From the NCBI GenBank assembly GCA_035547835.1, contig DASZTW010000005.1, positions 124,001 to 188,000 on the forward strand: DNA of 64,000 nt, written 5' to 3'. A program made the translations under genes and the position numbers. How positions within the stretch are numbered: position 1 is the first letter of the stretch; the number at the start of each line of letters is the position of its first letter. This document shows positions 15,438-43,277 of the stretch, piece by piece. A model generated the notes under the pieces. The model had not been told where the DNA came from. It did not search any database and saw only the letters and a program-made list of their open reading frames with translations. Origin of the DNA: Acidimicrobiales bacterium. Its GTDB lineage: Bacteria > Actinomycetota > Acidimicrobiia > Acidimicrobiales > Iamiaceae.

Positions 15438-15466
15438 ACTCTAAAGCAACTGACTTACTTTGTCGA
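15438..15466 (-). promoter_or_regulatory. tetR promoter with overlapping palindromic operator
   Basis: Minus-strand -35 TCGACA (15461-15466) and -10 TAGAGT (15438-15443) are separated by exactly 17 bp, and the -10 lies 6 nt from the ATG at 15431. The spacer is an imperfect palindrome, AAAGCAACTGACTTACTTT (15443-15461, 14 of 18 symmetric positions). A regulator bound there would block RNA polymerase, so TetR autorepression is likely (inference). Confidence 0.65.
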
Positions 15467-15491
15467 CCCTTCGCCGAGGTCTTCCCGACTC

Positions 15492-15532
15492 TTCGTGCAG
15501 AAGTGGCACTACAGCCGCCGCTTCTGCACGAA
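15492..15532. repeat. Palindromic repeat family B, copy 2 (intergenic)
   Basis: Arms TTCGTGCAGAAGTGGC (15492-15507) and GCCGCTTCTGCACGAA (15517-15532) match in 15 of 16 pairs around a 9-nt loop. It lies in the divergent region between the TetR gene and the acyl-CoA dehydrogenase, about 35 bp before the latter's start. Confidence 0.9.
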
Positions 15533-15554
15533 TCGCACGGTTGTGGCCGCGCGG

Positions 15555-15560
15555 TACCGT
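15555..15560 (+). promoter_or_regulatory. -10 box of the acyl-CoA dehydrogenase gene, leaderless type
   Basis: TACCGT lies 7 nt before the ATG at 15568, and there is no purine-rich ribosome binding site, so the transcript probably begins at the start codon. No clear -35 box. Confidence 0.45.
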
Positions 15561-15567
15561 CGCGGGG

Positions 15568-16716
15568 ATGGAGCGGACCCTGTACGACGACGAGCACGAG
15601 ATGTTCCGGGGCAGCTTCCGGGCCTTCCTCGACAAGGAGGTCGTGCCCAACTTCGAGCGGTGGGAGCACGAAGGGATCGTGCCCCGCGAGCTGTTCGCGA
15701 CGGCTGGCGCGGCCGGCTTTCTCGGCATGGCGATACCCGAGGAGTTCGGCGGCGGCGGGGTCGACGACTTCCGGTACAACGCGGTGATCGGCGAGGAAGT
15801 GCAGCGAGCCGGCGTCGGCGGCTGCGGGCTCGGCCTCACCCTCCACACCGACATCTGCACGCCCTACTTCTTGCACCTCACCAACGACGACCAGAAGGCC
15901 CGCTGGTTGCCGGGCATCGCGTCGGGCGAGCTCATCACAGCCGTGGCGATGACCGAGCCGGGCATCGGCTCGGACCTGGCGGGCATGGCGACGACGGCGG
16001 TGCGCGACGGCGACCACTACATCGTCAACGGCTCAAAGACGTTCATCTCCAACGGCATCAACGCCGACGTGGTGATCTGCGCGGTGAAGACCGACCCGAC
16101 ACAGCGCCACAAGGGCATGAGCCTTCTGGTGATCGAGCGCGCCATGGAAGGGTTCGAGCGCGGCCGCAACCTCGACAAAGTCGGGCTGAAGAGCCAGGAC
16201 ACGGCCGAGTTGTTCTTCCACGACGTCCATGTGCCGGTGGTGAACCGGCTCGGCGACGAGGGCACCGGCTTCCTCCAGCTCGTGCACAACCTGCCGCAGG
16301 AACGGCTTTCGATCGCCAACGCCGGCGTAGCCGCAGCGCGCGCCGCGTTCGACTGGACGCTCGCGTACGTCAAGGAGCGCACCGCGTTCGGCCAACCGAT
16401 CGGATCGTTCCAGAACTCCCGGTTCGCGCTGGCGGAGATGAAGACCGAGATCGAGATCGGCCAGTCGCACATCGACCGCTGCATCGCCGCGCACCTGCGT
16501 GGCGAGCTCACGGCCGACGAGGCCGCCGCCGCGAAGTGGTGGTGCACCGAGCTGCAAAAGCGGGTGGTCGACCGCTGCGTGCAGCTTCACGGCGGCTACG
16601 GCTACATGCTCGAGTACCCCGTGGCGCGGGCGTACACCGATGCCCGGATCACCACCATCTACGGCGGCACCACCGAGATCATGAAGGAGATCGTCGGGCG
16701 CTCGCTCGGCGTGTGA
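15568..16716 (+). CDS. Acyl-CoA dehydrogenase
   Basis: A 382-residue FAD enzyme that oxidises acyl-CoA to enoyl-CoA. Family signatures are AVAMTEPGIGSDLAGM (flavin-binding segment), RTAFGQPIGSFQNSRFALAEM and the C-terminal QLHGGYGYMLEYPVARAYTDARITTIYGGTTEIMKEI region with the catalytic-Glu motif. Length is normal. It is closest in style to long-chain acyl-CoA dehydrogenases, but chain length cannot be read from sequence. The start is fixed by the leaderless -10 box 7 nt upstream. Divergent from tetR, with a shared regulatory region. Confidence 0.92.
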   Translation: MERTLYDDEHEMFRGSFRAFLDKEVVPNFERWEHEGIVPRELFATAGAAGFLGMAIPEEFGGGGVDDFRYNAVIGEEVQRAGVGGCGLGLTLHTDICTPYFLHLTNDDQKARWLPGIASGELITAVAMTEPGIGSDLAGMATTAVRDGDHYIVNGSKTFISNGINADVVICAVKTDPTQRHKGMSLLVIERAMEGFERGRNLDKVGLKSQDTAELFFHDVHVPVVNRLGDEGTGFLQLVHNLPQERLSIANAGVAAARAAFDWTLAYVKERTAFGQPIGSFQNSRFALAEMKTEIEIGQSHIDRCIAAHLRGELTADEAAAAKWWCTELQKRVVDRCVQLHGGYGYMLEYPVARAYTDARITTIYGGTTEIMKEIVGRSLGV

Positions 16717-19855: not shown

Positions 19856-20626
19856 ATGCAGCGCTTCGAAGGTCGGGCCGTGTTCGTCACCGGCGTGGCG
19901 TCGGGGATCGGGCGGGCGTCGTTCGTGCAGTTCGCGTCAGAAGGCGCATCGGTCTACGGGATCGATGCCAACGCCGAGGCCCTCGCCGAGACCGAGCAGA
20001 TGGCAGAGGCCGCCGTGGCGGAGGCCGGCGGATCGGGCGCCACGTTGATCGTGCAGCCCGGCGACGTGAGCGACGAGCAAGCGGTGGGCGCGCACGTCGC
20101 CGCGGCCGTCGACGCGTTCGGCGGGCTCGACGTCGTGGCAAACATCGCCGGCATCTTGCGGTTCGGCCACACCCACGAGTTCGACTTCGCCACTTGGCGC
20201 AAGATGTTCGACGTCAACGTGCACGGCACGTTCCTCGTCTGCCGGGCCGCCCTCCCCCACCTGCTCGAGCGCAGGGGCGTGATCGTGAACATCGCGTCGA
20301 CGGCCGCCCACGCCGGCTGCCCGTGGGGCGCCGCGTACAGCGGCACGAAAGGCGCCGTGCTGTCGATGACGAGGGCGCTGGCGGTCGAGTACGCCGAGCA
20401 GGGCCTGCGGGCGGTCACGATCAGCCCCGGGTCGGTGGAGACGCCCATCCAGAACGAGTTCGCCGTGCCCGAAGGCGCCAACTGGAAGCTGATCCAGCGC
20501 GCCATGCCGCTCGGCCGCAGCGCCAAGCCCGAAGAGCTCGGCAAGATCGTCGCGTGGGCCGCGTCGGACGACTCGTCGATCTTCAACGGCGCCGACCTGC
20601 GGATCGACAGCGCCACCCTCGCCTGA
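19856..20626 (+). CDS. Short-chain dehydrogenase/reductase (SDR)
   Basis: A 256-residue NAD(P)-dependent oxidoreductase of classical SDR type: TGVASGIGRA (cofactor-binding glycine motif), D37 after the second strand suggesting NAD(H) preference, NIAG, catalytic Ser in NIASTAA, YSGTK (YxxxK) and the PGSVETPI segment. ATG at 19856 with GGAAGGGG upstream. Divergent from an acyl-CoA dehydrogenase across a KstR-like site, so a hydroxyacyl or hydroxysteroid dehydrogenase role is plausible but unproven. Confidence 0.9.
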   Translation: MQRFEGRAVFVTGVASGIGRASFVQFASEGASVYGIDANAEALAETEQMAEAAVAEAGGSGATLIVQPGDVSDEQAVGAHVAAAVDAFGGLDVVANIAGILRFGHTHEFDFATWRKMFDVNVHGTFLVCRAALPHLLERRGVIVNIASTAAHAGCPWGAAYSGTKGAVLSMTRALAVEYAEQGLRAVTISPGSVETPIQNEFAVPEGANWKLIQRAMPLGRSAKPEELGKIVAWAASDDSSIFNGADLRIDSATLA

Positions 20627-20841
20627 ACCCTCCCCCCGCTGTGAGCACTTGGCCACCCACCAGGTGGCTACCTGCTCACACCACCGTGGGAGGTGGGGAA
20701 CCCTCCCCCCGCTGTGAGCACTTGACCACCCACCAGGTGGCTACCTGCTCACACCACGGTGGGAGGTGGGGAACCCGCGCCCCGCTGTGAGCACTTGACC
20801 ACCCACCAGGTGGCTACGTGCTCACAGCACGGTGGGAGGGT
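20627..20841. repeat. Palindromic repeat family A, three tandem copies
   Basis: Three copies of a 73-bp unit (the CTGTGAGCAC element starts at 20639, 20712 and 20785) fill the convergent gap between the SDR gene and the giant gene. Each copy has a GTGAGCA...TGCTCAC inverted repeat around CCACCAGGTGG. The third copy has perfect 11-bp arms, GCTGTGAGCAC (20784-20794) and its complement (20818-20828). Units are joined without spacers, so this is a tandem array and not CRISPR. It may terminate transcription from both sides. Confidence 0.9.
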
Positions 20842-20846
20842 CCGGA

Positions 20847-23800
20847 TCAGGGGGCGTCGACCCCGTCGGCGCCGTCGGACGACGCCGCAGCACCGTTGGT
20901 GCCGTTGCTCGCCGCACCGTTGGTGCCGTTGGTGCCATTCGACCCGGCGACCGTGCCACCGGCGCCGCCCGCGCTGCCTCCGGTGCCGCCGGCCGGCGTG
21001 CCGACAGCGCCGATCGCGCCGTTGCTGCCACCCGAGGTGCCTGCGCCACCGAGGCCGCCGGGACTGCCGGCGGCCGAGCCCCCGGGGCCTCCCGCGCCAC
21101 CGGCCCCCGCGCTGGGCGTGCCCGGCGTGCCGCCGGGCGAGCCCGCACCACCGGTGGCCGCACCGCCCGCACCGCCGGAGGCCGCACCGGCGCCACCGGC
21201 ACCGGCGATCTCGGCCTGGGTGGTCGTGGGCGCCGGCGTGTTGTACGTCGACGTGGTCGAGGCCGTGTTGCCGGACACGTTGCCGGTCGACACGTTCACA
21301 CCCGAGTCAGCCGAGGCCGTGCCCGTGTTGACGAGCAGCGACGACTGGGTGGGCGTGACGACCCCACCGGCGTCGATGTGACCCGACTGGGTGACCTGGT
21401 TGGTGGCTTCGACCCCCTCGGCCGAAGCGGGCCCGGAGCCGACCGATGCGGTTCCGTCCGACGAGTTGCTCGACGGCGACGTCGACGAGGAGGCGAGGTC
21501 GCCGGTCGTCTGGTCCTCGGTGGAGTCAGCTGCGGCGTCGCCACCGGCGCCGCCCGTGGCCGTCCCTGCACCACCGTGGCCACCCGTGGCTGCGCCACCT
21601 GAACCACCCGTGCCACCGTTTCCGCCCGTGCCAGACCCGCCGGCACCACCTGCAGCACCTGCACCACCCGTGCTCGCGCCACCAGCACCACCTGCGCCAC
21701 CGTTGCCGCCGGTGCCCGACGTGACCGTGCCACCTGCGCCGCCACCGCCACCGGTGCCACCTGTGGCGCCGCCACCGGCGCCGCCAGCACCACCACCGGC
21801 GCCGTTGCCTGCGGCACCAGCCCCACCAGCTGCGCCTGCGCCACCGGTCGAAGCACCGCCTGCGCCGCCCGTGGCGGCCGAGGCACCACCCGCGCCACCC
21901 GTGGCCGCCGAGGTGGCCGTCGGCCCGTCAGCGGTGGTCGTGGCGGTGTGGGAGACACCGTTCGTCGAGGCGTTGCCGACGCCGGTGTTGCCGCCCGTGA
22001 AGGCCGAGCCGAACCCGGTCGTGTGGGCCGTGACGTCCTGGTCGACGTCGGCCACGCCGGGCGTGCCGATCGTGACGTCCGCGGCCTGCGTCGCGTGCAA
22101 CGTCGACTTGGCGCCGACTGCATCGCCGGCCCCGCTCGTGACGCTCGCCGTTCCGTCGGACGTGTTTGAAGTCGTGCCAGAGTCGGCCTGGCCGATGTCG
22201 CCCGTCGTGAGCGAGGAGTGGGCGCTCGAGTCGGCGCCGCCACCTGCGCCGCCGGTCGAGGTGCCCGCGAGACCGGCACCACCGGTCGAGGTGCCACCAG
22301 CGCCACCCGCGCCACCGGCACCACCGGTGCCCGCGCCGCCATTGCCGCCAACGGCGCCCGCACCGCCGGTCGAGGTGCCACCGGCACCACCCGCGCCGCC
22401 GGCACCACCGGTGCCCGCGGCTGCCGTCCCGGAACTGGACGACCCGCCCGTGCCCGGAAGACCCGGGACGCCGCCGCCGAGGACGCCCGGACCACCTGGG
22501 CCGCCGGAGCCGCCCGAGCCGCCACTGGCCGATCCGCCGGTCGTCGAGGCGCCACCACCGGCACCACCTGCACCACCGGAACCACCGGTCGAGGTGCCAC
22601 CGGCACCACCCGCGCCGCCTGTGGCGCCGGAACCGACGCCGCCTTGGCCACCCACGGCACCGGCGCCGCCGGTGGAGGCACCGCCAGCGCCGCCGGTCGC
22701 TGCCGACGCGCCACCCGCGCCGCCCGTGGCCGCGCTCGTGGCGGTCGGCCCGGACTGCAACGTGGTCACCGTCGAGTCAGCGTTGTTGGTCGAATCGTTG
22801 CCGTCAGCCTGGTTGGCGCCGGTGATGGCCGATGCCGTGCCGTCGACCGTGCTGTCGAGGCCCTGGTCGAGGTTGGCGACGCCCGTGCCGGACACGTTCG
22901 CCGTGGCCTGCTGCGAGCTGGTCAGCGTCGAGCCTGCGTCGGCACCGGTGGCCGACGCAGCCCCCGTGGCGATCGTCGCGGTGCCGTCGGAGTTGTTGGA
23001 AGTGGTTCGGCTCGTGCTCTGACCGATGTCGCCGGTCGTGAGCGACGCGTCAGCGTGGTCGGTGGACGCACCACCCGCACCTCCGGTCGAGGTCGCGGCG
23101 CCACCGGCACCGCCCGTGCTCGCACCGCCGGCACCACCGGCCGCTCCGGCGCCGCCGTTGCCGGCACCACCGAGACCACCGGCACCACCCGCGCCGCCCG
23201 TGCTGGCACCACCGGCACCACCGACGCCACCGGCACCACCGGTCGAGTTCGCATTACCGCCGGTCCCGGCACCGCCCGAGCCGCCCGAACCACCCGAGCC
23301 GCCGGCACCGAGGCCTGCCGGGCCACCGGCACCGCCCGCGCCGCCGGCACCACCCGTGCCCGTGCCGCCGGTCGAGGTGGCCGCGCCACCTGTGCCACCG
23401 GCCGCACCCGCGCCACCGGTGCTCACGCCACCGGCACCACCGGCACCGCCCGCCGCGCCGTTGCCAGCGCCGCCAGCCCCACCGGCGCCGCCGGCGCCGC
23501 CCGTGCTGGCTCCGCCTGCGCCGCCAAGCGACGCAGATGCCCCGCCGGCACCGCCGGTCGAGGTGCTCGACACCACCGGGCCGCCGACCGTGTTGCCGTC
23601 GTTCGAGGTCGAGCCGTTGGTCGAAGCGTTGCCGACCGCGCCGTTGCCGCCGGACGAAGCGCTCGCCGCTCCGCTGACCGAGGAGTCGACGTGCTGGTCA
23701 CCGTCGACCACACCCGACCCACCGATCGTCGCCGCCGACTGCTGCGCCGCCGTGGCCGACGACTTCGCACCCGTGGCGCCTGCACTTCCGGTCGTGACGG

Positions 23801-26800
23801 TCGCGCTGCCACCCGAGGTGTTCGCCGTCGTGCCGGCCTGCGACTGACCGACATCGCCGGTCGCGAGGGTGCCATCGGCGGTGGAGCCCGACGAACCGCC
23901 GGCCCCACCTGTGGACGTCGAGGCGCCGCCTGCGCCGCCCGCGGACTGACCACCGACGCCACCGACGTTGCCCGCGCCGCCCGTGCCCGCGCCACCGGCG
24001 CCGCCCGCGCCACCGGCACCACCCGTCGACTGACCGCCGGCACCGCCCGCACCAGCCGCGCCGGCCACGCTCACCGCGTTGCCGCCCGTCCCGGCACCAC
24101 CGGCACCGCCTTGGCCGCCGCTGCCACCGAGGCCGAGGGCCGCAGGACCGCCGGAACCACCTTGGCCGCCGTCACCACCGGTCGCCGCGCCGCCCGTGCT
24201 GGCGGCGTTGCCGCCACCGCCACCGACTGCGCCGGCACCACCGGTGGAGCCACCGCCGACGCCACCTTGCGCGCCGGCACCACCGGTTCCGCCGCCACCC
24301 ACACCGCCGGCACCGCCGGCACCGCCGGTCGAGCCACCGCCAGCGCCGCCGGTCGAGGTCGATGCCCCACCTGCGCCGCCGGTGCTGGAGCTGGTCACGC
24401 GGGGCCCGCTCACGCCGGTCGTCGTGAGGCTGCTGACGCCGTTGTCGGACTCGTTGCCGGTCGCGTCGTTGTCGCCAGAGGTCGACGACGCCGCGCCTTG
24501 GACCGTGTTGGCGAACGTCTGGTCGCCGCCGATCGTGCCGGACCCGCTGATCGCGTCGTCAGCCTGCTGCTGGCTGTGCAGCGTCGACTGCGCGCCGGTG
24601 ACGTTGGTCGAGCCGGTGCGGATCGTCGCCGATCCATCTGACGTGTTCGTGACGTCGCCCTGCTGGGCGAGCCCGACGTCGCCCGTGGACATCGTCTCCG
24701 AGGCCGCCGAGGTCGAAGGACCGCCTGCGCCGCCTGTCGACTCGGAACGACCACCGTCGCCACCCGTCGAGGCGCCGCCGGCCGCGCCAGCGCCGCCCTG
24801 GCCACCTCGGGTGGCACCACCCGCGCCACCCGCGCCGCCGGCACCACCGGTCGACGCGCCACCCGCGCCGCCGGCACCACCCACGCCGCCCGTGGAGTTC
24901 GCGAGCCCGCCTTGCGCGGGACCGCCCGTGCCGCCCGTGCCACCGTTGCCGCCGGCACCAACGGCCGCGCCTGCACCGTTGCCGCCCGTGCCACCGGTGC
25001 CGCCCGTGGCGGTACCACCGGACCCGGTCGCCGTGCCGCCGGCACCACCGGCCGCACCGCTCCCGCCGGTCCCGGCACCGCCGGCCGCACCGCTGCCACC
25101 GGCGCCGCCCTGCGTGAGGCCACCGGCCCCACCGGCACCTCCGGCGCCACCGACGGACGCGCCGCCGGCCCCACCGGTCGACGTCGACGCACCACCGGCG
25201 CCACCCGTGCTGCCGCTCGAGACCAGGGGGCCCGTCACGGCCGAGATCGCCGCCGCGCTGGCCTGGTTGGTCGAGACGTTGCCGGTCGCGGTGTTGCCGC
25301 CTGAGGAAGCACCCGCGCTACCGGACACGTCGGACGTCAGCGTCTGGTCGGCGTCGACCACACCCGAGCCGAGCGACGACCCGGTCTGCTGGGCGGCGCT
25401 CAGCGTGCTGGCCGCACCCGTGCCACCGGCGGAGCCGGTCGTGATCGTGGCCGAGCCGTCGGACGTGTTCGACGTCGTGCCGGCCTGGGACTGCCCGATG
25501 TCGCCGGTCGTGACCGAGGCGGTGGCCGACGAGTCGGACGAACCGCCCGCACCGCCGGTCGAGGTCGAGCGACCGCCTGCGCCGCCGGTGGAAGCTCCAC
25601 CGACCGCACCAGCCGCGCCAGCACCACCGGCTGCCGCACCACCGGTGCCACCGGCACCACCGGCACCACCGGTCCCCGCGCCACCGGTGCCACCGATGCC
25701 ACCGGAGCGGCCGTTGGCGCCGCCGAGACCGCCGTTGGCGCCGCCGCCGGAGCCGCCCTGGCCGCCGGTTCCGGCGATCGTGCCACCGCCGCCCGTGCCA
25801 CCGCCGCCGCCGGCACCACCGGTTCCGGTGCCGCCGGTCGAAGTCGAGGCGCCACCTGCGCCACCTGCGCCACCTGCGCCACCTGCGCCGGAGCCGCCGC
25901 CGTTGCCGGCGCCCGCGGCGCCGCCGGTTGCGGTCCCGCCAGCGCCACCGGCGCCACCTGCCCCGCCGACGGAACGGCCACCCGCGCCGCCGATCGCAGC
26001 CGACGCGCCGCCGGCGCCACCCGTGCTGGTGCTCGACACCACGGGCCCGCCGACGCCGTTCGTCGCGGAGCCGGTGGCGTCGTTCGAGGACTCGTTGCCA
26101 TACGCGGTGTTGGAGCCGGAGTCGGCGGTCAGCGCGCCACTGACGTGTGAGGTCACGGTCTGGTCGCCGAGGCTCACGCCGTCACCCGCGTCGGAGCTCG
26201 CGGCTTGCGACGCGGTCACCGCGGAGGATGCGCCGGTGCCCGACGCGTTGCCGGTCGTGATCGAGGTCGAACCGTCCGACGTGTTCGACGTGGTGCGGTC
26301 CTGCGACTGGCCGATGTCGCCCGTGGTCATGTCGCCCTGCACGGTCGACTGCGACGCGCCACCCGCGCCGCCCGTCGAGGTCGCCCGGCCACCTGCGCCA
26401 CCGGTCGAAGCGCCGCCGGCCGCGCCGGCCGCGCCGGCACCTCCGTTCGCTGCGCCACCGGTGCCACCGGTGCCGCCTTGGCCACCGGCACCTGCACCGC
26501 CGGTGCCGCCCGCGCCGCCGAAGCCCGTGCCGAGCGTGCCGGACGACGCCGTGCCACCCAGGCCCGCGCCGCCGGCACCGCCCTGGCCGCCCCCGGCCGG
26601 GATGCCGATTCCGGTCGCGCCGCCGGAGCCGCCGGCGCCACCTGTGCCGCCGGTGCCCGCGCCTCCCGTCGCCGCAGCTTGGCCACCCTGGCCGCCATTG
26701 CCACCGTTCGCGCCGGTGCCGGTGCCGCCGAGACCGCCCTCGCCGCCGATGCCGCCGAACGCGTTCGCACCGGAGCCGCCTGCGCCGCCGGCGCCGCCGA

Positions 26801-29800
26801 CCGAGGCACCCCCTGCGCCACCGCGGGCGCTGGAGGCGCCACCGGCGCCACCCGTGGAGGAGCCGGTCAGGTCCGGCCCCGTGACCGAAGCGCTGTCGTT
26901 GCTGGCGGCCGTGTTCGAGGAGTCGTTGCCGTAGCCCGTGTTGTCACCGGTGGTCGAGTCCGCGGTGCCGGCCACGGCGTTGTCGACGGTCTGGTGCTGG
27001 TCGCTCACGCTCGACCCAGTGGTCGCGCCGTGGATCGCCTGAGTGGCGTCGAACGTCGAGCTCGCGCCCGTCGCCGATGCCGCGCCGGTCGAGATCGTGA
27101 CCGAGCCGCCCGACGTGTTCGACGTCGTGCCGCTCTGCGCCAGACCGATGTCGCCGGTGGTCATCGAGCCGGACACGTTCGTGGACGACGCACCGCCGGC
27201 GCCGCCGGTCGAGCTCGCCGCGCCACCCGCGCCGCCGGTCGAGACGCCACCGGCCGCGCCGGCAGCTCCTGCGCCACCGGTCGCGGGACCGCCGGCACCG
27301 CCCGTTCCACCGGCACCACCTTGGCCCGTGCCGCCGACGCCACCGGCACCGCCCGTACCGCCGTTGGCCGTCGAGGGACCGCCTTCGCCGGTGCCACCGC
27401 CGCCACCCGTGCCGCCCGTGCCACCGATGCCGGCCACACCAGGCGCACCGTTGCCGCCCCGGCCGCCGGTGCCACCTTGGCCCGTGCCGCCGCTCGCGGT
27501 GGCCGCGCCGCCGGCACCGCCGGCGCCACCGAAGCCGCCGCCGCCCGTGCCACCGCCGCCACCGATGGCGCCGTTTCCACCGATCGCCTGACCGCCGGCG
27601 CCACCGGCACCACCCGCGCCACCGGTCGAAGCGCCACCGGCACCACCGACCGCCGACGAAGTGCCACCGGCACCGCCAGTCGAAGTGGCGTTGACGACCG
27701 GACCGGTCACGCGCGAGGTCGCGCTGCTCGAGGCAGCGTTGGACGAGTCGTTGCCGGAGCCGGTGTTGTCACCGCTCGACGCGGTGGCCGTACCGGCCAC
27801 CGCGTTGGTGACCGACTGGTGCTGGTCGGACACACCCGACCCGCCGATCGAGTCGTCCACCGACTGCGTGCCATGGGCCGTGGAGCTCGCACCGGTTGCC
27901 GACGCGGCCCCGGTCGAGATCGCAACCGCCCCATCCGACGTGTTGGTGGTCGAGCCGCTCTGGGCCTGGCCGATGTCGCCCGTGGACATGTCGCCGCTGG
28001 CCACCGTCGCAGATGCGCCACCGGCACCACCGGTCGACGTCGCCCGGCCGCCTTCGCCGCCCGTGGAAGCGCCACCGACGCCGCCGATCGCACCGGCACC
28101 GCCGGTGGCTGCACCGCCGGCGCCGCCGGTACCGCCGGCCGCGCCGGTGCCTGCAGCGCCGGCACCACCTGCTCCAGCCGAACCACCGAGAGCCGATCCG
28201 GCACCGCCGGTGCCCGCGCCGCCAGCAGCACCCGTTCCGCCGGCGCCACCGGCACCGACTCCGACGGGACCGCCGGAACCACCCGCGCCACCAGTGCCAC
28301 CCGTACCGGTGCCACCCGTCGCGGAAGCCTGACCACCGCTGCCGCCGGCAGCGCCCGCACCACCGAAGCCGCTACCTCCGAGACCACCGCTGGCGCCGTT
28401 GCCGCTGATCGCGCTACCGCCGGCACCGCCCGCACCACCGGCACCGCCGGTCGACTGGCCGCCCGCACCACCGGTCGCGCTCGATGCACCGCCCGCGCCA
28501 CCGGTCGACGACGCGCTGACCACCGGGCCCGTGACGCCGGAGGTCTGGTTGCTGGACGTGGTGTTGTCCGAGGAGTTGCCGTAGCCCGTGTTGTCGCCCG
28601 ACGAGGCGTCGGCCGTACCCGCCACGGCGTTGGTGGTGGTCTGGTTCGCGTCCGAGACGCCCGAGCCCGAGATCGAGCCGTCGACCGACTGCGAGCCGGT
28701 GTACGTCGAGGTCGCGCCCGTCGCCGACGCCGCGCCGGTCGAGATCGAGACCGAACCGTCCGACGTGTTCGAGGTCGTGCCGCTCTGGTTCAGGCCGATG
28801 TCGCCGGTGGTCATGGACCCGGTCACGGTCGTCGACGCGGCACCACCCGCGCCGCCCGTCGAGGTCGACGCGCCACCGGCACCACCGGTCGACGCGCCAC
28901 CCGCGGCACCTGCGCCACCGGCACCGCCGGTCGCGACGCCACCCGCGCCGCCCGTGCCACCGACCCCGCCGGTTCCCGTAGCGCCCGCACCGCCGGCGCC
29001 ACCTGCGCCACCGGTCGACGCGGCGTCGCCACCCGTGCCGGCACCGCCAGTGCCGCCGGCACCACCCGTCCCACCGGCACCAAGGGCGCCGGATCCACCG
29101 GACCCGCCGCTGCCGCCCGTGCCGCCCGAGCCGGAGCCACCCGTGGCGGTCGCGTTCCCACCGGTGCCACCTGCACCGCCGCCGCCACCGATACCGGTGC
29201 CACCGGCACCACCTGCACCACCGTTGCCACCGATCGCGCCGCCACCGGAGGCGCCAGCACCACCTGCGCCGCCCGTGGCCGCGCCGCCGGCACCGCCGGT
29301 CGCCGTGGAGGCGCCGCCCGCGCCGCCCGTCGACGAGCCATTGAGGCTCGGACCGGACACGCCGGAGGACTGCGAGCTCGTGGCCGTGTTCGTCGAGGAG
29401 TTGCCGTAGCCGGTGTTGTCGCCCGAGTTCGAAGTCGCCGAACCGCTCACCGAGTTGGTGGCGGTCTGGTCCGGGAGGGACACACCGCTGCCACCGATCG
29501 TCGAGCCGACGGCCTGCGTCGAGCTCGCGGTGGACGACGCGCCGGTCGCGGTCGACGCGCCAGTCGAGATGTTCACCGAGCCATCGGACGTGTTCGTCGC
29601 GGAGCGGTTCTGGTTGAGGCCGATGTCGCCCGTGGTCATCGAGCCCGACACGTTGGTCGTCGCGCCGCCACCGGCACCGCCCGTCGCGGTCGCCGCGCCA
29701 CCGGCGCCACCGGTCGCTGCGCCACCGACACCGCCGGCGCCACCGGCACCGCCCGTCGCCGCGCCACCCGCGCCACCCGCGCCGCCGGCACCACCGGAGC

Positions 29801-32800
29801 CGGTCCCGCCGGCACCACCGATACCCCCTGCACCGCCTCCGGCGCTCGCGCTGCCACCCGCGCCGTCGCCACCCGCGCCGCCGGAGCCACCGGAGCCAGC
29901 CACGCCGATGCCCACGCTGCCGCCCGCACCGCCGGAGCCGCCGGAGCCGCCGGTGCCGTTGCCACCCGTGGCCGTGCCGCTGCCGCCGTCGCCGCCGGCG
30001 CCGCCCGCACCACCGGAGCCGGTCCCGCCGGTCCCGCCGGTCCCGCCGGTCCCTGCGATGGCCTCACCACCGGCACCACCTGCACCACCTGCGCCGCCCG
30101 TGGCCGCGCCGCCCGCACCACCGGTCGCCGTGGCGTCGCCGCCCGCGCCACCGGTCGCCGTCGCGGTGACGGACGGGCCGGTCACGCCGGTGTCCTGCGT
30201 GCTCGTGACGTTGTTGGTCGACGAGTTGCCAGAGCCGGTGTTCCCGCCGCTGTTCGAGGTCGCGGAACCCGCGACGGAGCTCGAAGCGGTCTGGTCCGGC
30301 GTGGACACACCGCTGCCGCCGATCGACGAGTCGACCGACTGGGTCGACGTAAGTGACGACGTCGCGCCGGTCGCCGTCGAGGCGCCGGTCGAGATGTTGA
30401 CCGAGCCGTTGGAGTCGTTCGAGGTGGTCGAGGTCTGGTTCAGGCCGATGTCGCCGGTCGACATCGTGGCCGAGCCGGTCGCCGAGGCGTCGCCGCCCGC
30501 ACCACCGGTCGCCCTCCCTGCGCCGCCGGCACCACCTGTGGCTGCGCCACCCGCACCACCTGCGCCACCTGCGCCACCGGTTGCGTCGCCGCCGACACCA
30601 CCCGCACCGCCGGCACCACCCGTTCCGGCGCCACCCGCGCCGCCCACGCCACCAGCACCGCCGGTCGCGCTGGCCGAACCGCCCGTCCCGCTGCCGCCCG
30701 TGCCACCCGCGCCCCCAGGCCCGCCGATGATGGGCAGACCCGGCGCGCCAGGCGCACCGGACCCGCCGGGCCCAGCGTTGCCACCTGCTGCCGCGGAGTC
30801 ACCACCGTCTCCGCCCGCACCACCGCTGCCGCCCGTGCCGGCAGCACCCGCACCACCGCTGGCGCCGGCGCCACCGACCGCGGCAGCGCCCGCACCGCCG
30901 GCGCCACCTGCGCCGCCCGTGCCGGTACCGCCCGCACCGCCCGTGCCTGTTCCGTTGCCGCCGTTGCCGCCCGTGGCGGTCACGGTGACCGACGGGCCCG
31001 TGACACCGCTGGTCTGCGTGGTCGTGGCCGTGTTGGTCGAGGAGTTGCCGACGCCGGTGTTGTCACCGCTGTTGGAGGTGGCGGAACCGTCGACGGTGTT
31101 CGAGATGGCCTGGTCCGCGTCGATCGTGCCGCTGCCGGTGATGGTGCCGTCGATCGACTGGTTCGAGGTCGTGGAAGACGTCGCGCCCGTGGCCGTGGCC
31201 GCGCCGGTCACGATGCCGACCGAGCCGTCCGACTTGTTCGACGTGGTCGAGGTCTGGTTGAGGCCGATGTCGCCGGTCGACATCGTGGCCGAGCCGCTGG
31301 CCGACGCCGCGCCACCTGCACCACCCGTGCCCCTGCCGGCTCCGCCCGCGCCGCCGGTGCCGGTACCACCCGCACCGGCCGCGCCGCCGGATCCGGCCAC
31401 CGCTGAGCCGGCCGACCCTCCCGGGCCACCCGAGCCGCCGGTTCCGGAGCCCGCGGCACCGCCGGGGCCGCCCGCGGCGCCCGTGGCACCGGGCGTCCCG
31501 GGTCCACCGGCCGAGCCTGCAGCCGCACCGCCGGGCCCTCCCGCAGTACCGCCCGACGCGACGACCGTCACGCCACCGCTGCCACCCGCGGCACCGGCGC
31601 CGCCGGTGCCCGTGCCACCCGCACCGCCCGTCCCCGATCCGTTGCCCCCTGCGCCACCCGTGGCGGTCGTGCTCACCGAAGGTCCGGCGACGCCCGTCGT
31701 CTGCGTCGTGGTGGCGGTGTTGGTCGAGCTGTTGCCCGTGCCCGTGTTGTGACCACTGTCGGACGAGGCCGTCCCGGTCGTCGAGACGTCGGAGCTCTGA
31801 TCGGCGTCGACCACGCCGCTCGACGGGTCGGTGATGGCCTGGGTTGCGCTCGTCGTGGACTTGGCGCCGACCGCAGTGGCCGCGCCGGTCACGATCGAGA
31901 CCGAGCCGTTCGAGTCGTTCGACGCCGTGCCGGTCTGGTTCTGGGCGAGGTCGCCCGTGGTCATGGCGGTGCCGGCGCCCGCCCCGGCACCGCCACCCGC
32001 GCCACCCACGCCTGCGCCCGTCCCACCAGCGCCGCCCGTGCCACTGGCACCGCCCGCGCCGCTGACGTTCGCGCCGTTCGCACCGTTGTTCGACGACGAC
32101 GCGCCGACGGCGCCAGCCGTTGCAACCGGGGCGATCGGCGGCGGGGCCACCGAGGCGTTCTGGTCGACCAGCGCGGTGTTGATCGAGCTGTTGCCGTACG
32201 CGGTGTTGTAGCCCGAGTTGGCCGTGCCGTAGCCGGTGCTGTGCACCACCGACTTCTGGTCGTACAGCTCCACACCGGCGAGCGCGCCGCCCGAGGTGCG
32301 CTGGTCGCTCTGGCTCACCGCGTTGGTCGAGTCGTCACCCGTCGCGGTGGCAGCGCCGGTGCGGATCGACGCGCTGCCGTCCGACGTGTTCGACGCGGTG
32401 CCGTCCTCGTTGACTGCGACGTCGCTGGTGCCGGCCACCGCGCCCAGCAAGGCCTGGTTGATCTCGGCGTCGTTGGTGGAGTCGTTGCCGGTCGCGGTGT
32501 TGCCACCCGACGTCGCGCTGGCCGTCCCGGTGTTGTCGATCGTGGAGCTCTGGTGGTCGTCGACCACGCCGCCCGCGACGCCCCCGTCGGACTGCGTGAC
32601 GCTGTTGGAGGACTGGTTGCCCACCGCGGTCGCGGGGCCGGTGACGATCGAGCCGGTGCCGTTCGAGGTGTTCGATGCGGTGCCGTTCATGTTGACGGCG
32701 GACGTGGCGGCGCCGTCGATGTTCGGGCTCTGGTTCGCTGTCGCCGTGTTGTGCGAGCCGTTGCCGACGACCGTGTTGTTGCCCGTGTTGGCCGACGCGC

Positions 32801-33137
32801 TGCCCTGGTTGTTGACGGTGCTGGTCTGGTGGGTGACCTGCACTGCGCCAGAGGCGGTGACGGCCTGCCCGACCGTGTTGGAGGTCTTGTTGCCGGTGGC
32901 GGTGGCGCCAGCCGTGTTGACCTGCGACGCGCCACTCGACGTGTTGGCCGTGCCGCCGCCGGTGTTGGCGGCTTGCGAGGGGTCGGCTGCATGGACGGCG
33001 GTGGTCGCGTGCGCGGCTGTCGCCTGGACGCCGATGATCGTGCCACCAGCTGCGAAGGTCAGCAGCGCACGCTTGATGATGCGCCGCTCCATCGCCGCCG
33101 AGTCACGTCCGTCGCGACGCTCAGCCCGCTTGCCCAT
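20847..33137 (-). CDS. Giant secreted modular Gly/Ala/Asn/Ser/Thr-rich repeat protein (4096 residues)
   Basis: A 12,291-bp gene. ATG at 33137, preceded by AAGGGGTGG, starts an arginine-rich signal peptide (hydrophobic RALLTFAAGGTIIGVQ, cleavage probably after AHA near residue 45). Residues ~50-340 are Asn/Ser/Thr-rich and carry two partial heads (SNTSxG...TGxATAxG) without a glycine segment. Fourteen modules follow, each beginning TTGDIGxxQ or a variant; their DNA positions fall every ~825 bp (close to 31955, 31270, 30455, 29625, 28805, 27980, 27155, 26320, 25505, 24680, 23855, 23030, 22200, 21505). Each ~275-residue module has a ~120-residue head (SNTSDGS, STGxASATG, GDNTGYGNSSxN) and a ~155-residue GGAGGxGG segment resembling the PGRS part of PE_PGRS proteins, but no PE domain exists. 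No LPXTG or C-terminal membrane anchor is visible. Likely a cell-surface or matrix protein with beta-solenoid or polyglycine-II folding (inference). Confidence 0.85.
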   Translation of the reverse strand: MGKRAERRDGRDSAAMERRIIKRALLTFAAGGTIIGVQATAAHATTAVHAADPSQAANTGGGTANTSSGASQVNTAGATATGNKTSNTVGQAVTASGAVQVTHQTSTVNNQGSASANTGNNTVVGNGSHNTATANQSPNIDGAATSAVNMNGTASNTSNGTGSIVTGPATAVGNQSSNSVTQSDGGVAGGVVDDHQSSTIDNTGTASATSGGNTATGNDSTNDAEINQALLGAVAGTSDVAVNEDGTASNTSDGSASIRTGAATATGDDSTNAVSQSDQRTSGGALAGVELYDQKSVVHSTGYGTANSGYNTAYGNSSINTALVDQNASVAPPPIAPVATAGAVGASSSNNGANGANVSGAGGASGTGGAGGTGAGVGGAGGGAGAGAGTAMTTGDLAQNQTGTASNDSNGSVSIVTGAATAVGAKSTTSATQAITDPSSGVVDADQSSDVSTTGTASSDSGHNTGTGNSSTNTATTTQTTGVAGPSVSTTATGGAGGNGSGTGGAGGTGTGGAGAAGGSGGVTVVASGGTAGGPGGAAAGSAGGPGTPGATGAAGGPGGAAGSGTGGSGGPGGSAGSAVAGSGGAAGAGGTGTGGAGGAGRGTGGAGGAASASGSATMSTGDIGLNQTSTTSNKSDGSVGIVTGAATATGATSSTTSNQSIDGTITGSGTIDADQAISNTVDGSATSNSGDNTGVGNSSTNTATTTQTSGVTGPSVTVTATGGNGGNGTGTGGAGGTGTGGAGGAGGAGAAAVGGAGASGGAGAAGTGGSGGAGGDGGDSAAAGGNAGPGGSGAPGAPGLPIIGGPGGAGGTGGSGTGGSASATGGAGGVGGAGGAGTGGAGGAGGVGGDATGGAGGAGGAGGAATGGAGGAGRATGGAGGDASATGSATMSTGDIGLNQTSTTSNDSNGSVNISTGASTATGATSSLTSTQSVDSSIGGSGVSTPDQTASSSVAGSATSNSGGNTGSGNSSTNNVTSTQDTGVTGPSVTATATGGAGGDATATGGAGGAATGGAGGAGGAGGEAIAGTGGTGGTGGTGSGGAGGAGGDGGSGTATGGNGTGGSGGSGGAGGSVGIGVAGSGGSGGAGGDGAGGSASAGGGAGGIGGAGGTGSGGAGGAGGAGGAATGGAGGAGGVGGAATGGAGGAATATGGAGGGATTNVSGSMTTGDIGLNQNRSATNTSDGSVNISTGASTATGASSTASSTQAVGSTIGGSGVSLPDQTATNSVSGSATSNSGDNTGYGNSSTNTATSSQSSGVSGPSLNGSSTGGAGGASTATGGAGGAATGGAGGAGASGGGAIGGNGGAGGAGGTGIGGGGGAGGTGGNATATGGSGSGGTGGSGGSGGSGALGAGGTGGAGGTGGAGTGGDAASTGGAGGAGGAGATGTGGVGGTGGAGGVATGGAGGAGAAGGASTGGAGGASTSTGGAGGAASTTVTGSMTTGDIGLNQSGTTSNTSDGSVSISTGAASATGATSTYTGSQSVDGSISGSGVSDANQTTTNAVAGTADASSGDNTGYGNSSDNTTSSNQTSGVTGPVVSASSTGGAGGASSATGGAGGQSTGGAGGAGGAGGSAISGNGASGGLGGSGFGGAGAAGGSGGQASATGGTGTGGTGGAGGSGGPVGVGAGGAGGTGAAGGAGTGGAGSALGGSAGAGGAGAAGTGAAGGTGGAGGAATGGAGAIGGVGGASTGGEGGRATSTGGAGGASATVASGDMSTGDIGQAQSGSTTNTSDGAVAISTGAASATGASSTAHGTQSVDDSIGGSGVSDQHQSVTNAVAGTATASSGDNTGSGNDSSNAASSSATSRVTGPVVNATSTGGAGGTSSAVGGAGGASTGGAGGAGGAGGQAIGGNGAIGGGGGTGGGGFGGAGGAGGAATASGGTGQGGTGGRGGNGAPGVAGIGGTGGTGGGGGTGEGGPSTANGGTGGAGGVGGTGQGGAGGTGGAGGPATGGAGAAGAAGGVSTGGAGGAASSTGGAGGASSTNVSGSMTTGDIGLAQSGTTSNTSGGSVTISTGAASATGASSTFDATQAIHGATTGSSVSDQHQTVDNAVAGTADSTTGDNTGYGNDSSNTAASNDSASVTGPDLTGSSTGGAGGASSARGGAGGASVGGAGGAGGSGANAFGGIGGEGGLGGTGTGANGGNGGQGGQAAATGGAGTGGTGGAGGSGGATGIGIPAGGGQGGAGGAGLGGTASSGTLGTGFGGAGGTGGAGAGGQGGTGGTGGAANGGAGAAGAAGGASTGGAGGRATSTGGAGGASQSTVQGDMTTGDIGQSQDRTTSNTSDGSTSITTGNASGTGASSAVTASQAASSDAGDGVSLGDQTVTSHVSGALTADSGSNTAYGNESSNDATGSATNGVGGPVVSSTSTGGAGGASAAIGGAGGRSVGGAGGAGGAGGTATGGAAGAGNGGGSGAGGAGGAGGAGGASTSTGGTGTGGAGGGGGTGGGGTIAGTGGQGGSGGGANGGLGGANGRSGGIGGTGGAGTGGAGGAGGTGGAAAGGAGAAGAVGGASTGGAGGRSTSTGGAGGSSDSSATASVTTGDIGQSQAGTTSNTSDGSATITTGSAGGTGAASTLSAAQQTGSSLGSGVVDADQTLTSDVSGSAGASSGGNTATGNVSTNQASAAAISAVTGPLVSSGSTGGAGGASTSTGGAGGASVGGAGGAGGAGGLTQGGAGGSGAAGGAGTGGSGAAGGAGGTATGSGGTATGGTGGTGGNGAGAAVGAGGNGGTGGTGGPAQGGLANSTGGVGGAGGAGGASTGGAGGAGGAGGATRGGQGGAGAAGGASTGGDGGRSESTGGAGGPSTSAASETMSTGDVGLAQQGDVTNTSDGSATIRTGSTNVTGAQSTLHSQQQADDAISGSGTIGGDQTFANTVQGAASSTSGDNDATGNESDNGVSSLTTTGVSGPRVTSSSTGGAGGASTSTGGAGGGSTGGAGGAGGVGGGGTGGAGAQGGVGGGSTGGAGAVGGGGGNAASTGGAATGGDGGQGGSGGPAALGLGGSGGQGGAGGAGTGGNAVSVAGAAGAGGAGGQSTGGAGGAGGAGGAGTGGAGNVGGVGGQSAGGAGGASTSTGGAGGSSGSTADGTLATGDVGQSQAGTTANTSGGSATVTTGSAGATGAKSSATAAQQSAATIGGSGVVDGDQHVDSSVSGAASASSGGNGAVGNASTNGSTSNDGNTVGGPVVSSTSTGGAGGASASLGGAGGASTGGAGGAGGAGGAGNGAAGGAGGAGGVSTGGAGAAGGTGGAATSTGGTGTGGAGGAGGAGGPAGLGAGGSGGSGGSGGAGTGGNANSTGGAGGVGGAGGASTGGAGGAGGLGGAGNGGAGAAGGAGGASTGGAGGAATSTGGAGGASTDHADASLTTGDIGQSTSRTTSNNSDGTATIATGAASATGADAGSTLTSSQQATANVSGTGVANLDQGLDSTVDGTASAITGANQADGNDSTNNADSTVTTLQSGPTATSAATGGAGGASAATGGAGGASTGGAGAVGGQGGVGSGATGGAGGAGGTSTGGSGGAGGAGGGASTTGGSASGGSGGSGGPGGPGVLGGGVPGLPGTGGSSSSGTAAAGTGGAGGAGGAGGTSTGGAGAVGGNGGAGTGGAGGAGGAGGTSTGGAGLAGTSTGGAGGGADSSAHSSLTTGDIGQADSGTTSNTSDGTASVTSGAGDAVGAKSTLHATQAADVTIGTPGVADVDQDVTAHTTGFGSAFTGGNTGVGNASTNGVSHTATTTADGPTATSAATGGAGGASAATGGAGGASTGGAGAAGGAGAAGNGAGGGAGGAGGGATGGTGGGGGAGGTVTSGTGGNGGAGGAGGASTGGAGAAGGAGGSGTGGNGGTGGSGGAATGGHGGAGTATGGAGGDAAADSTEDQTTGDLASSSTSPSSNSSDGTASVGSGPASAEGVEATNQVTQSGHIDAGGVVTPTQSSLLVNTGTASADSGVNVSTGNVSGNTASTTSTYNTPAPTTTQAEIAGAGGAGAASGGAGGAATGGAGSPGGTPGTPSAGAGGAGGPGGSAAGSPGGLGGAGTSGGSNGAIGAVGTPAGGTGGSAGGAGGTVAGSNGTNGTNGAASNGTNGAAASSDGADGVDAP

Positions 33138-33311
33138 GGTGGTCCACCCCTTCGCCCGTCGTTGGCGGGTGACAGAGGGCGACCGGCCTACGCCGGGACA
33201 TCGCCCATTCCTTGCCGTCAGCCCGCGCCTCCCTCCACACAGGAGGGACAGCGTCCGAAACGTACCAAAGCACCCCGGCAGCAGGGACCCCAGCACACCC
33301 CTAGGATTATC
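33138..33311 (-). promoter_or_regulatory. Structured 5' leader and candidate promoter of the giant gene
   Basis: The mRNA leader can form two hairpins. One is at 33177-33206, with a 6-bp outer stem (GGGCGA with TCGCCC) and a 5-bp inner stem (CCGGC with GCCGG) closed by GTAG. The other is at 33230-33248, with 7-bp arms TCCCTCC and GGAGGGA around a 5-nt loop. A minus-strand GATAAT (33306-33311) is the best -10 candidate; no good -35 was seen. I cannot match the leader to a known riboswitch. Confidence 0.45.
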
Positions 33312-35764: not shown

Positions 35765-35867
35765 GTCGGCTCCTTCGGGTGGCTCGGGCTCGGCCGGTTG
35801 CCGACGAGCCACCGGTAGCCTGGCTCGCCGTGCGGTGTGGGTGCAGACAGAACGCGATCGGGCAGCG

Positions 35868-40291: not shown

Positions 40292-42445
40292 TCAGGGCGA
40301 GTCGGGAATCAGCGCGTACGTCGAGAAGCACATCTCGTCCTCGGTACCTTCGGCGAACACGATGTACTTCGGCGGCCGGTTCGGGTCGAGCGACCGGTCC
40401 CACGTGCACTCCATCCGCACGGTCTGGCCGGCGTCGACGTGGAGCGGCTGTGCGAGCGAGTAGTTCATCTGCCAGTCGAAGTTCCACGTCGGGATGTCGA
40501 GCAGGATCTTCTGGCTCGGCAGGCCCGGGTCGAGGGTGAGGCGGAAGCTCTTGCCCAACGTGTGCATGTGGCCCATCACGGCGATGATCGTGCCCGACTG
40601 CGGGACTTTGGTGTCGCACGACGAATGGGCCACCCCGTCGAACCCCGCCGTCAGCTCCTCGGGGGTCTTGCCGCAGATCCCCAGCAGCCCCGGCTCGGCG
40701 AACGCACCGATGGGTCCGTACAACCTGGCGTCGTCGGCCAGCGCGGCGTCGCGGTTGCACAGCGGTGCGTTGGTGCCCGGCATGCACGGGATCTCGACCG
40801 GTGCCAGTGGGTTCACGATGGTGATCGGCCGGATCCTCGAGCTCACCGGGTCGAGCTGGAGAGCCATGCCGGAACGGTCGGGGGTCGGCTTGATGTCCTC
40901 GTGGTGGTAGTGGATCTGCAGGACGAGCGCGTCGCCCGGATCGAGCCGGACGCCGCTGTCGTGGCCGTAGATCACCGGCAACTGACCCGGTACCCACCCC
41001 GCGATGAGACCGGCTTGACCGACCACCCGGTGGCCACGGCCGCGGCCCAACGCCACACCGGGGCCGCCGTAGCACGACCAGCCGGGCTTGCCGTCCTGGC
41101 CCTCGCGCGCGGCCGCCTGATCGCGACCGGCGGCCGGCAACTTGAACACCTGCGCGTGATGGATCTCGTTGATCTGGTCGCCGAGGAACTCGTAGCCGGT
41201 CAGGTACATCGACTTGGTGAGGTGCGGGTCGAGGACGAAACAGCGGTAGTCGTTGGGGATCGACGCCGAGCCTTCGTACGCTTTCGCCATGCGCACCACC
41301 ACGTCGTGGCGCGGCGCCGGACCGGCCGCGCCCGGTGTGGGCTTGATGCGGGTGTCGGCGGGGACGTCGAGGTGGCCTCCGGATTCACCCCACGCCACCA
41401 AGTCGTCGACTTGTTGCTGGCTGAGCTGCAACGAGTGCGCGAGCGGCACCCCCTTGGTCGACGCCGGCCAGGGTGGCATGTAGCGAGCCTTCGCCACGAC
41501 GCCGATGCCCGACGCGACCTTCGACGCGTCGCCGGCCGTGTCGAGCGTCCAGTGCTCCGCGCCGACCTTGCCCGTGTTGTGGCACGACGCGCAGCTCGCT
41601 TCGAGGATCGGCTGGATCGTCTTGTGGAACGACGGCCCCGAGCCGTGCTCGGCCGCCCCTGCGGGCGCGGCGATCTGCGTGGGGATCTGGTTGGTCGACG
41701 GGTCGAGCGCGGTCAGCCGCATGGTGAGGCGCACGGCGTCCGACGTGCTGACCAGCCCCGCCACCGAGATCGGCCCGGCGCCGAACGTCGACAGCTTGGT
41801 GTCGGTGGTGGCCGTGGTGGTGAGGCGACCGTTGGCGAAGCGACCCGTCGCGTCCCACGTGATCGGCGCCGTGGTCTTCTTCACGGTGGCGGTCCCGTGG
41901 AGTTGGAAATGGTAGGTGTGCCCCGGTTCGAGACGGGCGGGCAGCCCGCTGATGCTCGTGGTGTGGAACGTGGCGAGCGGATAGGTGGCCGACTCGAGGA
42001 AGTCCTCGCGGATGCGGGCATCGCGCAGGCTCTGGTCGGAGTGGAACTGCTCGACGTTGGCCACGATGTCGCCGACCCGGCTGGCCGCAGGGTTGGTCGG
42101 GTTCAGCGCCAAGTCGCCGGCGATGCCGTTGGTGGTACCGATCGCATGGCCGGTCGTGGCGCCGACGAGCTTCTCGGACACCTCGTAGCCCAGCTGCGAC
42201 CGGGTCGGGTCGATGCGGTACACCGTCTCGCCGTTACCGGCGACCAGCCGGGGAGCTGACGGCACCGAGTACCCCACCGTCTTGTACCGGCTCGGCACGT
42301 CGAGCCACGAATGGATCTTCCACCACGCGAAGCCCGCGACGCCGCCGAGTACCACCACGACCGCGGCGAGGATCCGCCACTTCGACCGCCACGGCCGCGC
42401 GCCGCGCCGGCGGGGCACGTCGGCGGCTGGCTCGGCGTCGGTCAT
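40292..42445 (-). CDS. YceI - cytochrome c - copper type II monooxygenase fusion protein
   Basis: A 717-residue membrane-anchored protein. One N-terminal helix (WRILAAVVVVLGGVAGFAWW, ~residues 23-42) is followed by a YceI-like lipocalin domain (~65-245; YRIDPTRSQLGYEV, FLESATYPLATFHTT). A cytochrome c segment comes next, with haem motif CASCH and probable axial Met in ARYMPPW (~265-340). The rest is a PHM/DBH-type copper monooxygenase: HH in NEIHHAQVF, HYHH, GHMHTLG and DEMCFSTY with the Met ligand. All motifs needed for two copper sites and one haem are present. The active part should lie outside the membrane. The cytochrome may feed electrons to the copper domain (inference). Substrate unknown. 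Confidence 0.85.
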   Translation of the reverse strand: MTDAEPAADVPRRRGARPWRSKWRILAAVVVVLGGVAGFAWWKIHSWLDVPSRYKTVGYSVPSAPRLVAGNGETVYRIDPTRSQLGYEVSEKLVGATTGHAIGTTNGIAGDLALNPTNPAASRVGDIVANVEQFHSDQSLRDARIREDFLESATYPLATFHTTSISGLPARLEPGHTYHFQLHGTATVKKTTAPITWDATGRFANGRLTTTATTDTKLSTFGAGPISVAGLVSTSDAVRLTMRLTALDPSTNQIPTQIAAPAGAAEHGSGPSFHKTIQPILEASCASCHNTGKVGAEHWTLDTAGDASKVASGIGVVAKARYMPPWPASTKGVPLAHSLQLSQQQVDDLVAWGESGGHLDVPADTRIKPTPGAAGPAPRHDVVVRMAKAYEGSASIPNDYRCFVLDPHLTKSMYLTGYEFLGDQINEIHHAQVFKLPAAGRDQAAAREGQDGKPGWSCYGGPGVALGRGRGHRVVGQAGLIAGWVPGQLPVIYGHDSGVRLDPGDALVLQIHYHHEDIKPTPDRSGMALQLDPVSSRIRPITIVNPLAPVEIPCMPGTNAPLCNRDAALADDARLYGPIGAFAEPGLLGICGKTPEELTAGFDGVAHSSCDTKVPQSGTIIAVMGHMHTLGKSFRLTLDPGLPSQKILLDIPTWNFDWQMNYSLAQPLHVDAGQTVRMECTWDRSLDPNRPPKYIVFAEGTEDEMCFSTYALIPDSP

Positions 42446-42484
42446 GTCATCTCGTCCCCCTGCGCGGCCGCCCAGCGACCGGCG

Positions 42485-42567
42485 TGCCCGGGGTGGGATT
42501 CGAACCCACACGCCCTTTCGGACAGCGGATTTTGAGTCCGCCGCGTCTGCCATTCCGCCACCCGGGC
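42485..42567 (-). tRNA. tRNA-Leu (anticodon CAA)
   Basis: An 83-nt class II tRNA on the minus strand. Acceptor GCCCGGG (42567-42561) pairs with CCCGGGC, with discriminator A at 42485. The anticodon stem GCGGA/TCCGC encloses loop CTCAAAA (anticodon CAA, reading UUG). A long variable arm with a GAAA-type loop and the T-arm GGGTTCGAATCCC are present. The 3' CCA is not encoded. Confidence 0.95.
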
Positions 42568-42593
42568 GAGCTCGTCGATCGTAGCCGGGCGGG

Positions 42594-43277
42594 TCACGCG
42601 AGCAGGACGCCCTCGTGGCGCAGCAGCCAGCGCTTGGCGTCGAGGCCGCCGCCGTAGCCGCCGAGCGCCCCGCCGGTTCGCAGCACGCGGTGGCACGGCT
42701 GCACGATCGGGATGGGGTTGGTGGCCATGGCCGTGCCGACCGCGCGGGACGCACCGGGGTGCCCGACCCGGGTGGCGAGGTCGCGGTAGCTGAGCACCAC
42801 GCCGAACGGCACCAGGGTGAGCTCCCGCAAGACGTCGAGGCGAAAGCCGTGGGAGAGCTGACGGTCGAGCGGGAGATCGAAGTCGCGGCGCGCGCCGTCG
42901 AAGTACTCGTCGAGCTGGCGGCGGACGTCGTCGAGGCGGGCCGGGTCCTCCAACACCCGCGGCGACACTCTCGCAGCCAGCTCCTCGAGACCCTCCGCGC
43001 CGGTGCCGAAGTGGATCTGCACGAGGCCGACCGACGTGGCCGCCAGCGTGAGGGGACCGATCGGCGTGTCGTGGTGGGTCCAGGCGACGTCGACCAGGCC
43101 GGCTGCGGCCGCTGCGTCCCGGGCCCGGGACAGCACATCGGCGGGGACCGACGGCGTGGCACTCGCCGCGGCGCGCAGCCGGTCGACGATCGCGGTGTCG
43201 GCAGCGTCGACCGGAGCGGCAGCGTCGGGCGACGAGTCGGTCGGGTTCGAGTGGGCGGAGTTCGGGCGGAGGGTCAT
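42594..43277 (-). CDS. ogt: Methylated-DNA-protein cysteine methyltransferase
   Basis: A 227-residue DNA repair protein that moves the alkyl group of O6-methylguanine to its own cysteine. The active-site motif IPIVQPCHRVL is present, followed by GGYGGGLDAKRWLLRHE; the helix-turn-helix segment LSYRDLATRVGHPGASRAVG precedes it. An Ala/Asp-rich N-terminal ~75 residues precede the domain. ATG at 43277 overlaps the sigma-factor stop (ATGA), so the two are coupled. Confidence 0.92.
   Translation of the reverse strand: MTLRPNSAHSNPTDSSPDAAAPVDAADTAIVDRLRAAASATPSVPADVLSRARDAAAAAGLVDVAWTHHDTPIGPLTLAATSVGLVQIHFGTGAEGLEELAARVSPRVLEDPARLDDVRRQLDEYFDGARRDFDLPLDRQLSHGFRLDVLRELTLVPFGVVLSYRDLATRVGHPGASRAVGTAMATNPIPIVQPCHRVLRTGGALGGYGGGLDAKRWLLRHEGVLLA

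Follow-up and report, generated by a model that had tools for sequence, protein, structure and literature searches.

The window analysed here is the whole stretch of DNA, 64,000 nucleotides in length. It carries on its minus strand a gene for a giant repeat protein of 4,096 residues (Table 1), located well inside contig C5. The open reading frame was uninterrupted from 20847 to 33482 and ran on upstream of the ATG at 33137; this ATG was chosen as the start, as it stands before a good signal peptide. No internal stop and no frameshift were seen in the coding frame, whereas the other frames over the gene contained 7 to 57 stops each, which ruled out coding on the plus strand. A collapsed-repeat assembly artefact was also rejected, because the modules are too divergent and the locus lies well inside its contig. 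Thus, the secreted 4,096-residue protein proposed by an earlier, sequence-only reading was confirmed, with the hydropathy profile in agreement. That reading had named frameshifts or an assembly artefact as grounds for abandoning it; on the assembly the frame proved intact, and dN was lower than dS among the modules (see below).

The protein was rich in Gly (35%), Ala (18%), Thr (14%) and Ser (12%), and strongly acidic (153 Asp/Glu versus 34 Lys/Arg), with neither Cys nor Trp. The stretch ATAAHA followed the hydropathy maximum of the putative signal peptide, and the N termini of the relatives described below bore similar signal peptides, as judged by eye. A motif scan and hydropathy analysis found neither a transmembrane segment nor, over the final 120 residues, an LxxTG motif, in accordance with the lack of a visible anchor noted originally.

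Table 1. Features of the giant repeat gene and its 3' flank (window positions)
Feature	Position	Strand	Remarks
CDS of giant repeat protein, 4,096 aa	20847..33137	minus	ATG at 33137, TGA at 20847
Putative signal-peptide N terminus (MGKRAERR...MERRIIKRALLTFAAGGTIIGVQATAAHA)	33006..33137	minus	Hydropathy maximum at residues 24-42, then AxA-type site
Head-type units at the N terminus, about three, lacking Gly segments	32103..33005	minus	Most like N terminus of C18 paralogue
13 complete head+Gly modules	21507..31958	minus	Eleven internal, 272-278 aa (816-834 bp); first 227 aa, last 233 aa
Example module 5, 275 aa	27984..28808	minus	Head 28503-28808, Gly segment 28002-28502 (167 aa)
Last head and degenerate Gly/Asn-rich tail	20847..21506	minus	No LxxTG, no transmembrane segment
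REP-like array, three 73-bp units with strong palindrome	20625..20839		Between convergent 3' ends of giant and SDR genes

The genes surrounding the giant encode acyl-CoA dehydrogenases, an SDR, an alpha/beta hydrolase, a double ABC exporter and branched-chain amino-acid-type ABC transport. A functional link with them was discarded, since they belong to ordinary metabolism and transport and the neighbours of the relatives are mutually unrelated. In four genomes of the same taxonomic family, the order acyl-CoA dehydrogenase, acyl-CoA dehydrogenase, hydrolase was kept without the giant, and 1.2 to 2.5 kb with different small genes stood in place of the SDR and giant genes. The giant gene is therefore regarded as lineage-specific, placed at a site of gene turnover, and not as a member of an operon. 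In the same-family genomes examined, the equivalents of the interval from the acyl-CoA dehydrogenase to the alpha/beta hydrolase (19891-33371) carried a cargo that differed from genome to genome, including PLP-enzyme-like, CoA-ester-lyase-like, rhodanese/AsnC-like and sugar-nucleotidyltransferase-like genes (assigned by eye).

The 3' end of the giant gene lies within 10 bp of the REP-like array. Each unit contains a palindrome of ~45 bp (TGTGAGCAC..CACCTGGTGGGTGG..GTGCTCACA) that is very stable as RNA (z -7.9), and 79 matches were found in the same genome at about 40 sites, often as pairs or triplets. Judged from these features, the 73-bp units appear to form a REP/BIME-like dispersed family in Acidimicrobiales.

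Elsewhere in the window, a tRNA-Leu(caa) (42484-42567) was located inside the open frame 40292..43162 on the minus strand; for this reason, the start of the YceI / Cu-monooxygenase-like gene must lie downstream of the tRNA, and the 956-residue frame is over-long. A tRNA-Ser(cga) called by ARAGORN at 15618-15714, inside the acyl-CoA dehydrogenase frame 15460..16716, is probably a false positive. At 35358-39743, two complete ABC exporters (TM-NBD-TM-NBD) occupied a single frame of 1,461 residues, whose best NCBIfam match, just above the cut-off, was a cyanophycin metabolism-associated ABC transporter.

The repeat array was delimited with the marker TGD[I/V/L][G/A], which occurs 14 times between residues 394 and 3878. 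Successive markers were spaced by 227, 273, 275, 275, 275, 275, 278, 272, 274, 275, 275, 277 and 233 residues. Thus, the near-constant period noted previously held, together with its shorter ends (681 and 699 bp), although the run of regular intervals comprised eleven and not twelve. Each module consisted of a Ser/Thr/Asn-rich head of ~102 residues followed by a Gly segment, as the sequence-only reading had proposed; in module 5, a lead-in of 6 residues separated the Gly segment from the TGD marker that follows. The positions invariant in 13 heads included TGD, N.S.G, Q, G.N...GN.S.N and GP. The three head-type repeats that precede the array had escaped the earlier reading.

The Gly segments measured 121, 165, 167, 167, 167, 167, 170, 165, 167, 167, 167, 167 and 125 residues, respectively; the length was exactly 167 in eight of the eleven internal modules and 165 to 170 in all of them. 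Runs of at least two GGX triplets covered 54% of the segments, compared to 9% after shuffling, a likeness to the PE_PGRS proteins. Gly autocorrelation was in excess at lags 3, 14, 49 and 52, although the z-scores of these periodicities overstate their significance because the modules share ancestry. Only 4 Phe, and no Trp or Tyr, were present in the 2,082 residues of the Gly segments.

Membership in PE_PGRS was nevertheless ruled out. The PE domain (PF00934) was found neither in the giant (Pfam, E<=1), in line with the earlier reading, nor elsewhere in its genome, and unlike PE_PGRS proteins the giant bears a Sec-type signal peptide and short Gly segments of fixed length that alternate with heads. 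In PE_PGRS proteins, the aromatic/hydrophobic edge of turns is described as a 'foot' in the mycomembrane (PMC9436101), whereas the giant has no Phe/Trp-rich edge. For lack of both this edge and the PE domain, the idea of PGRS as a 'membrane sail' does not transfer to the giant.

No family in Pfam, NCBIfam or the PDB accommodated the giant. There was no Pfam match at E<=1 and no NCBIfam match at E<=0.1, PDB sequence matches did not exceed chance, and searches of the three libraries with the head, the module, the Gly segment, the paralogue or the G187 relative were likewise empty or at chance level. For these three libraries, the earlier remark that the two-part design was not recognised from a named family thus stood, but the protein is not isolated. 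A giant exported repeat protein is known as a kind; the repeat family and its length-locked alternation with GGX spacers are new to the libraries searched.

Within the same genome, the head profile matched a single further locus, on contig C18. This paralogue is a frame of 2,390 residues with 22 back-to-back units spaced 89 to 108 residues apart and no Gly segments; a Pro/Thr stalk leads to its C terminus, LAHTGAPLDEEALLGLLLLLAGIPVTRLARRRRRSEG (LAHTG, a transmembrane segment and RRRRR). LAXTG is the signal of the class E sortases of soil and freshwater actinobacteria (PMC5148588), and the LAHTG of the paralogue is accordingly predicted to be a class-E-type sorting signal; the genome encodes two sortases. 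One of these two sortases (contig G000:C2, locus L053) directly adjoins a secreted protein that ends in LAFTG, a transmembrane segment and a basic tail (23-1015 and 1063-1905), the two being likely a sortase/substrate pair.

The giant-head profile matched individual units in the C18 paralogue as well as in the relatives, with E values down to 4e-18 and 1e-19. The shared repeat has ~95 to 110 residues, occurs in tandem and displays the signatures Q, N-x-S/G-x-G, TG-x-A-x-A-x-GN and TG-x-N-x3-GN-x-S-x-N. The giant carries this homologous repeat, which defines the family; the C-terminal sorting signal was not used in the definition. Of the relatives, the nine whose C terminus is intact all carried the sorting signal (LxxTG, transmembrane segment and basic tail), and the giant alone lacked it. 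Taken together, the giant is an unusual member, apparently without an anchor, of a so far undescribed Acidimicrobiia family of surface proteins built of repeats.

The family was found in 15 of the 397 genomes of the order sample (own genome included), in 7/296 genomes of the class sample and, in the 396-genome phylum sample, in the own genome only; none of the 23 other genomes of the same taxonomic family matched. With so sparse a distribution, and absent from those 23 genomes, the repeat family is not an essential structure. A contig profile search with the heads of the giant alone gave no match, whereas a broader repeat alignment identified seven named loci. The relatives include G187:C62 and C56, JAHWJI010000029.1, JAKOVH010000033.1 and JAHFUR010000014.1; the named loci belong to Acidimicrobiales, Acidimicrobiia or unclassified Actinomycetota MAGs. 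A further relative in JAUJNB010000012.1 (locus L033, 9509-14406) was split among several frames; its repeats were rich in Asp/Asn, and its C terminus carried ALAVTG and a transmembrane segment. This copy is decayed or mis-assembled.

Most relatives lack Gly segments, unlike the giant with its spacer in each unit. The head+Gly design nonetheless recurs in a second family of the order, and partly in a third. The last 1,497 residues of G187:C62 contained head+Gly modules spaced 218, 219, 215, 217 and 221 residues apart (a period of ~218), with Gly segments of ~110 residues that include GFGGFGG turns; head-only units came after these modules, and then LPRTG and a transmembrane segment. G083:C27, a fragment of 652 residues, also had Gly segments between heads. 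A tree built from 136 units grouped the heads of the giant with most C18 units and with those heads of G187:C62 that bear Gly segments (local support, 0.88 and 0.86), and it paired the giant's first unit with the first one of the C18 paralogue (0.96). Built on single short repeats, this tree is weak, and both one gain and two gains of the Gly segment are compatible with it.

The giant differs from its relatives in three respects: a GGX segment of ~167 residues lies at the inter-unit linker, the composite has been amplified into 13 modules with one more head at the end, and the anchor is missing. The best reading of this pattern is that the giant would derive from a sortase-anchored ancestor by gain of the Gly spacer and loss of the anchor.

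The modules proved to be strongly diverged. Pairwise identity was 44 to 72% for protein and 61 to 77% for DNA, and the longest identical DNA stretch between any two modules was 34 bp. Such divergence marks the array as old; what keeps it regular is a conserved length and not recent homogenisation. The sequence-only reading had expected such an array to be prone to unequal recombination; with so little identical DNA between modules as its substrate, this expectation was not supported. Among the eleven internal modules, median dN and dS were 0.49 and 0.72 for the heads and 0.30 and 1.01 for the Gly segments, and codon position 3 was the commonest site of differences, most strongly in the Gly segments. 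Thus, the heads tolerate more amino-acid change than the Gly spacers, and dN was lower than dS for both, showing that the reading frame has been under past purifying selection. The constant length of a low-complexity Gly segment at such divergence (dS ~1) points to a length constraint.

These values also bear on whether the giant is a degenerate, non-functional member that lost its sorting signal, perhaps on arrival of the REP-like array at the 3' end, and is now simply shed. Consistent with such a loss, it is the sole family member with a C terminus present but no LxxTG, its C-terminal tail is degenerate and the REP-like array is close by; moreover, dN<dS among modules is mostly a record of past selection and so is compatible with a recent loss of function. 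However, a frame that stays open and unshifted over 4,096 codons, dN<dS and the constant length of the modules argue against decay, and the shorter module and distinct head that close the array resemble an ordered C terminus. We consider this alternative improbable.

A second alternative is a very long fibrillar adhesin, in which the heads would be multivalent binding units and the Gly segments distance-setting spacers. The regular spacing of the heads, the greater variation of the Ser/Thr/Asn-rich heads than of the spacers and the surface anchors of the relatives are in agreement with it, and, like the fibrillar adhesins of Gram-positive bacteria, the giant is very long, exported and built of tandem modules, with sortase anchors in its relatives. 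However, fibrillar adhesins are defined by a stalk plus an adhesive domain (PMC8286594), and no recognised Pfam stalk or adhesive domain and no anchor were found in the giant, which makes this reading a rather unlikely one.

Curli (CsgA) repeats presumably resemble the giant only as Gln/Asn/Gly-spaced beta-type repeats, and their repeat length differs from that of the giant. No Curlin_rpt (PF07012) match at E<=1 was obtained with the giant, 14 homologous stretches or the C18 paralogue.

AlphaFold models of a module together with the head that follows it (alignment of 11 rows) and of the N-terminal head repeats (14 rows) reached pLDDT values of 28.7 and 43.4, respectively, and Foldseek gave no fold match in the PDB; both models are of low confidence and were left out of the fold claims. 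We infer that the heads may be beta-rich repeats. For PE_PGRS proteins, published models (PMC9436101, PMC10216338) arrange the GGX triplets in PGII sandwiches, the first Gly pointing to the interior, and a polyglycine-II-like structure of the Gly spacers would fit the GGX content and the lag-14 periodicity.

Of the functions first suggested (surface fibre, adhesin or matrix protein), a fibre or matrix role is still the simplest, the relatives being surface proteins of the sortase-anchor type. We consider it reasonably probable that the giant is an exported extracellular structural protein, forming a surface or matrix fibre. Counting against it, Pfam and NCBIfam gave no adhesive, cell-wall-binding or enzymatic domain, AlphaFold yielded no confident model, the repeat family is sparse, and the missing anchor leaves retention at the surface without an evident basis. 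In this structural role, Sec-type export would release the protein from the cell, the heads would fold as beta-rich repeats, and each Gly segment would either fold into short polyglycine-II-like helices stacked on one another or act as a flexible spacer of fixed length, so that the heads would sit at regular intervals along a very long fibre, acidic and free of cysteine. Retention at the cell would be through non-covalent association, for instance with a head-only anchored paralogue or a wall polymer, binding to the anchored head-only paralogue being the most economical guess, and the fibre might serve as a matrix, a spacer or an adhesive fibre. A more speculative proposal, held with little confidence, is a silk-like 'block copolymer' in which beta-repeat heads and length-locked polyglycine-II bundles would alternate along one secreted chain of 4,000 residues, having arisen within a sortase-anchored family and, in this species, been released from the wall as a matrix fibre.

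The giant and its relatives point to a so far undescribed family of giant surface proteins, narrow in its taxonomic range, in an actinobacterial order that has received little study, with PGRS-like GGX sequence used as a constant-length spacer outside the mycobacteria and without a PE domain. The family may offer a natural test system for polyglycine-II folding of GGX sequence, as the head unit occurs with and without the segment, the segment in two lengths (~167 versus ~110 residues) and the protein in anchored and unanchored forms.
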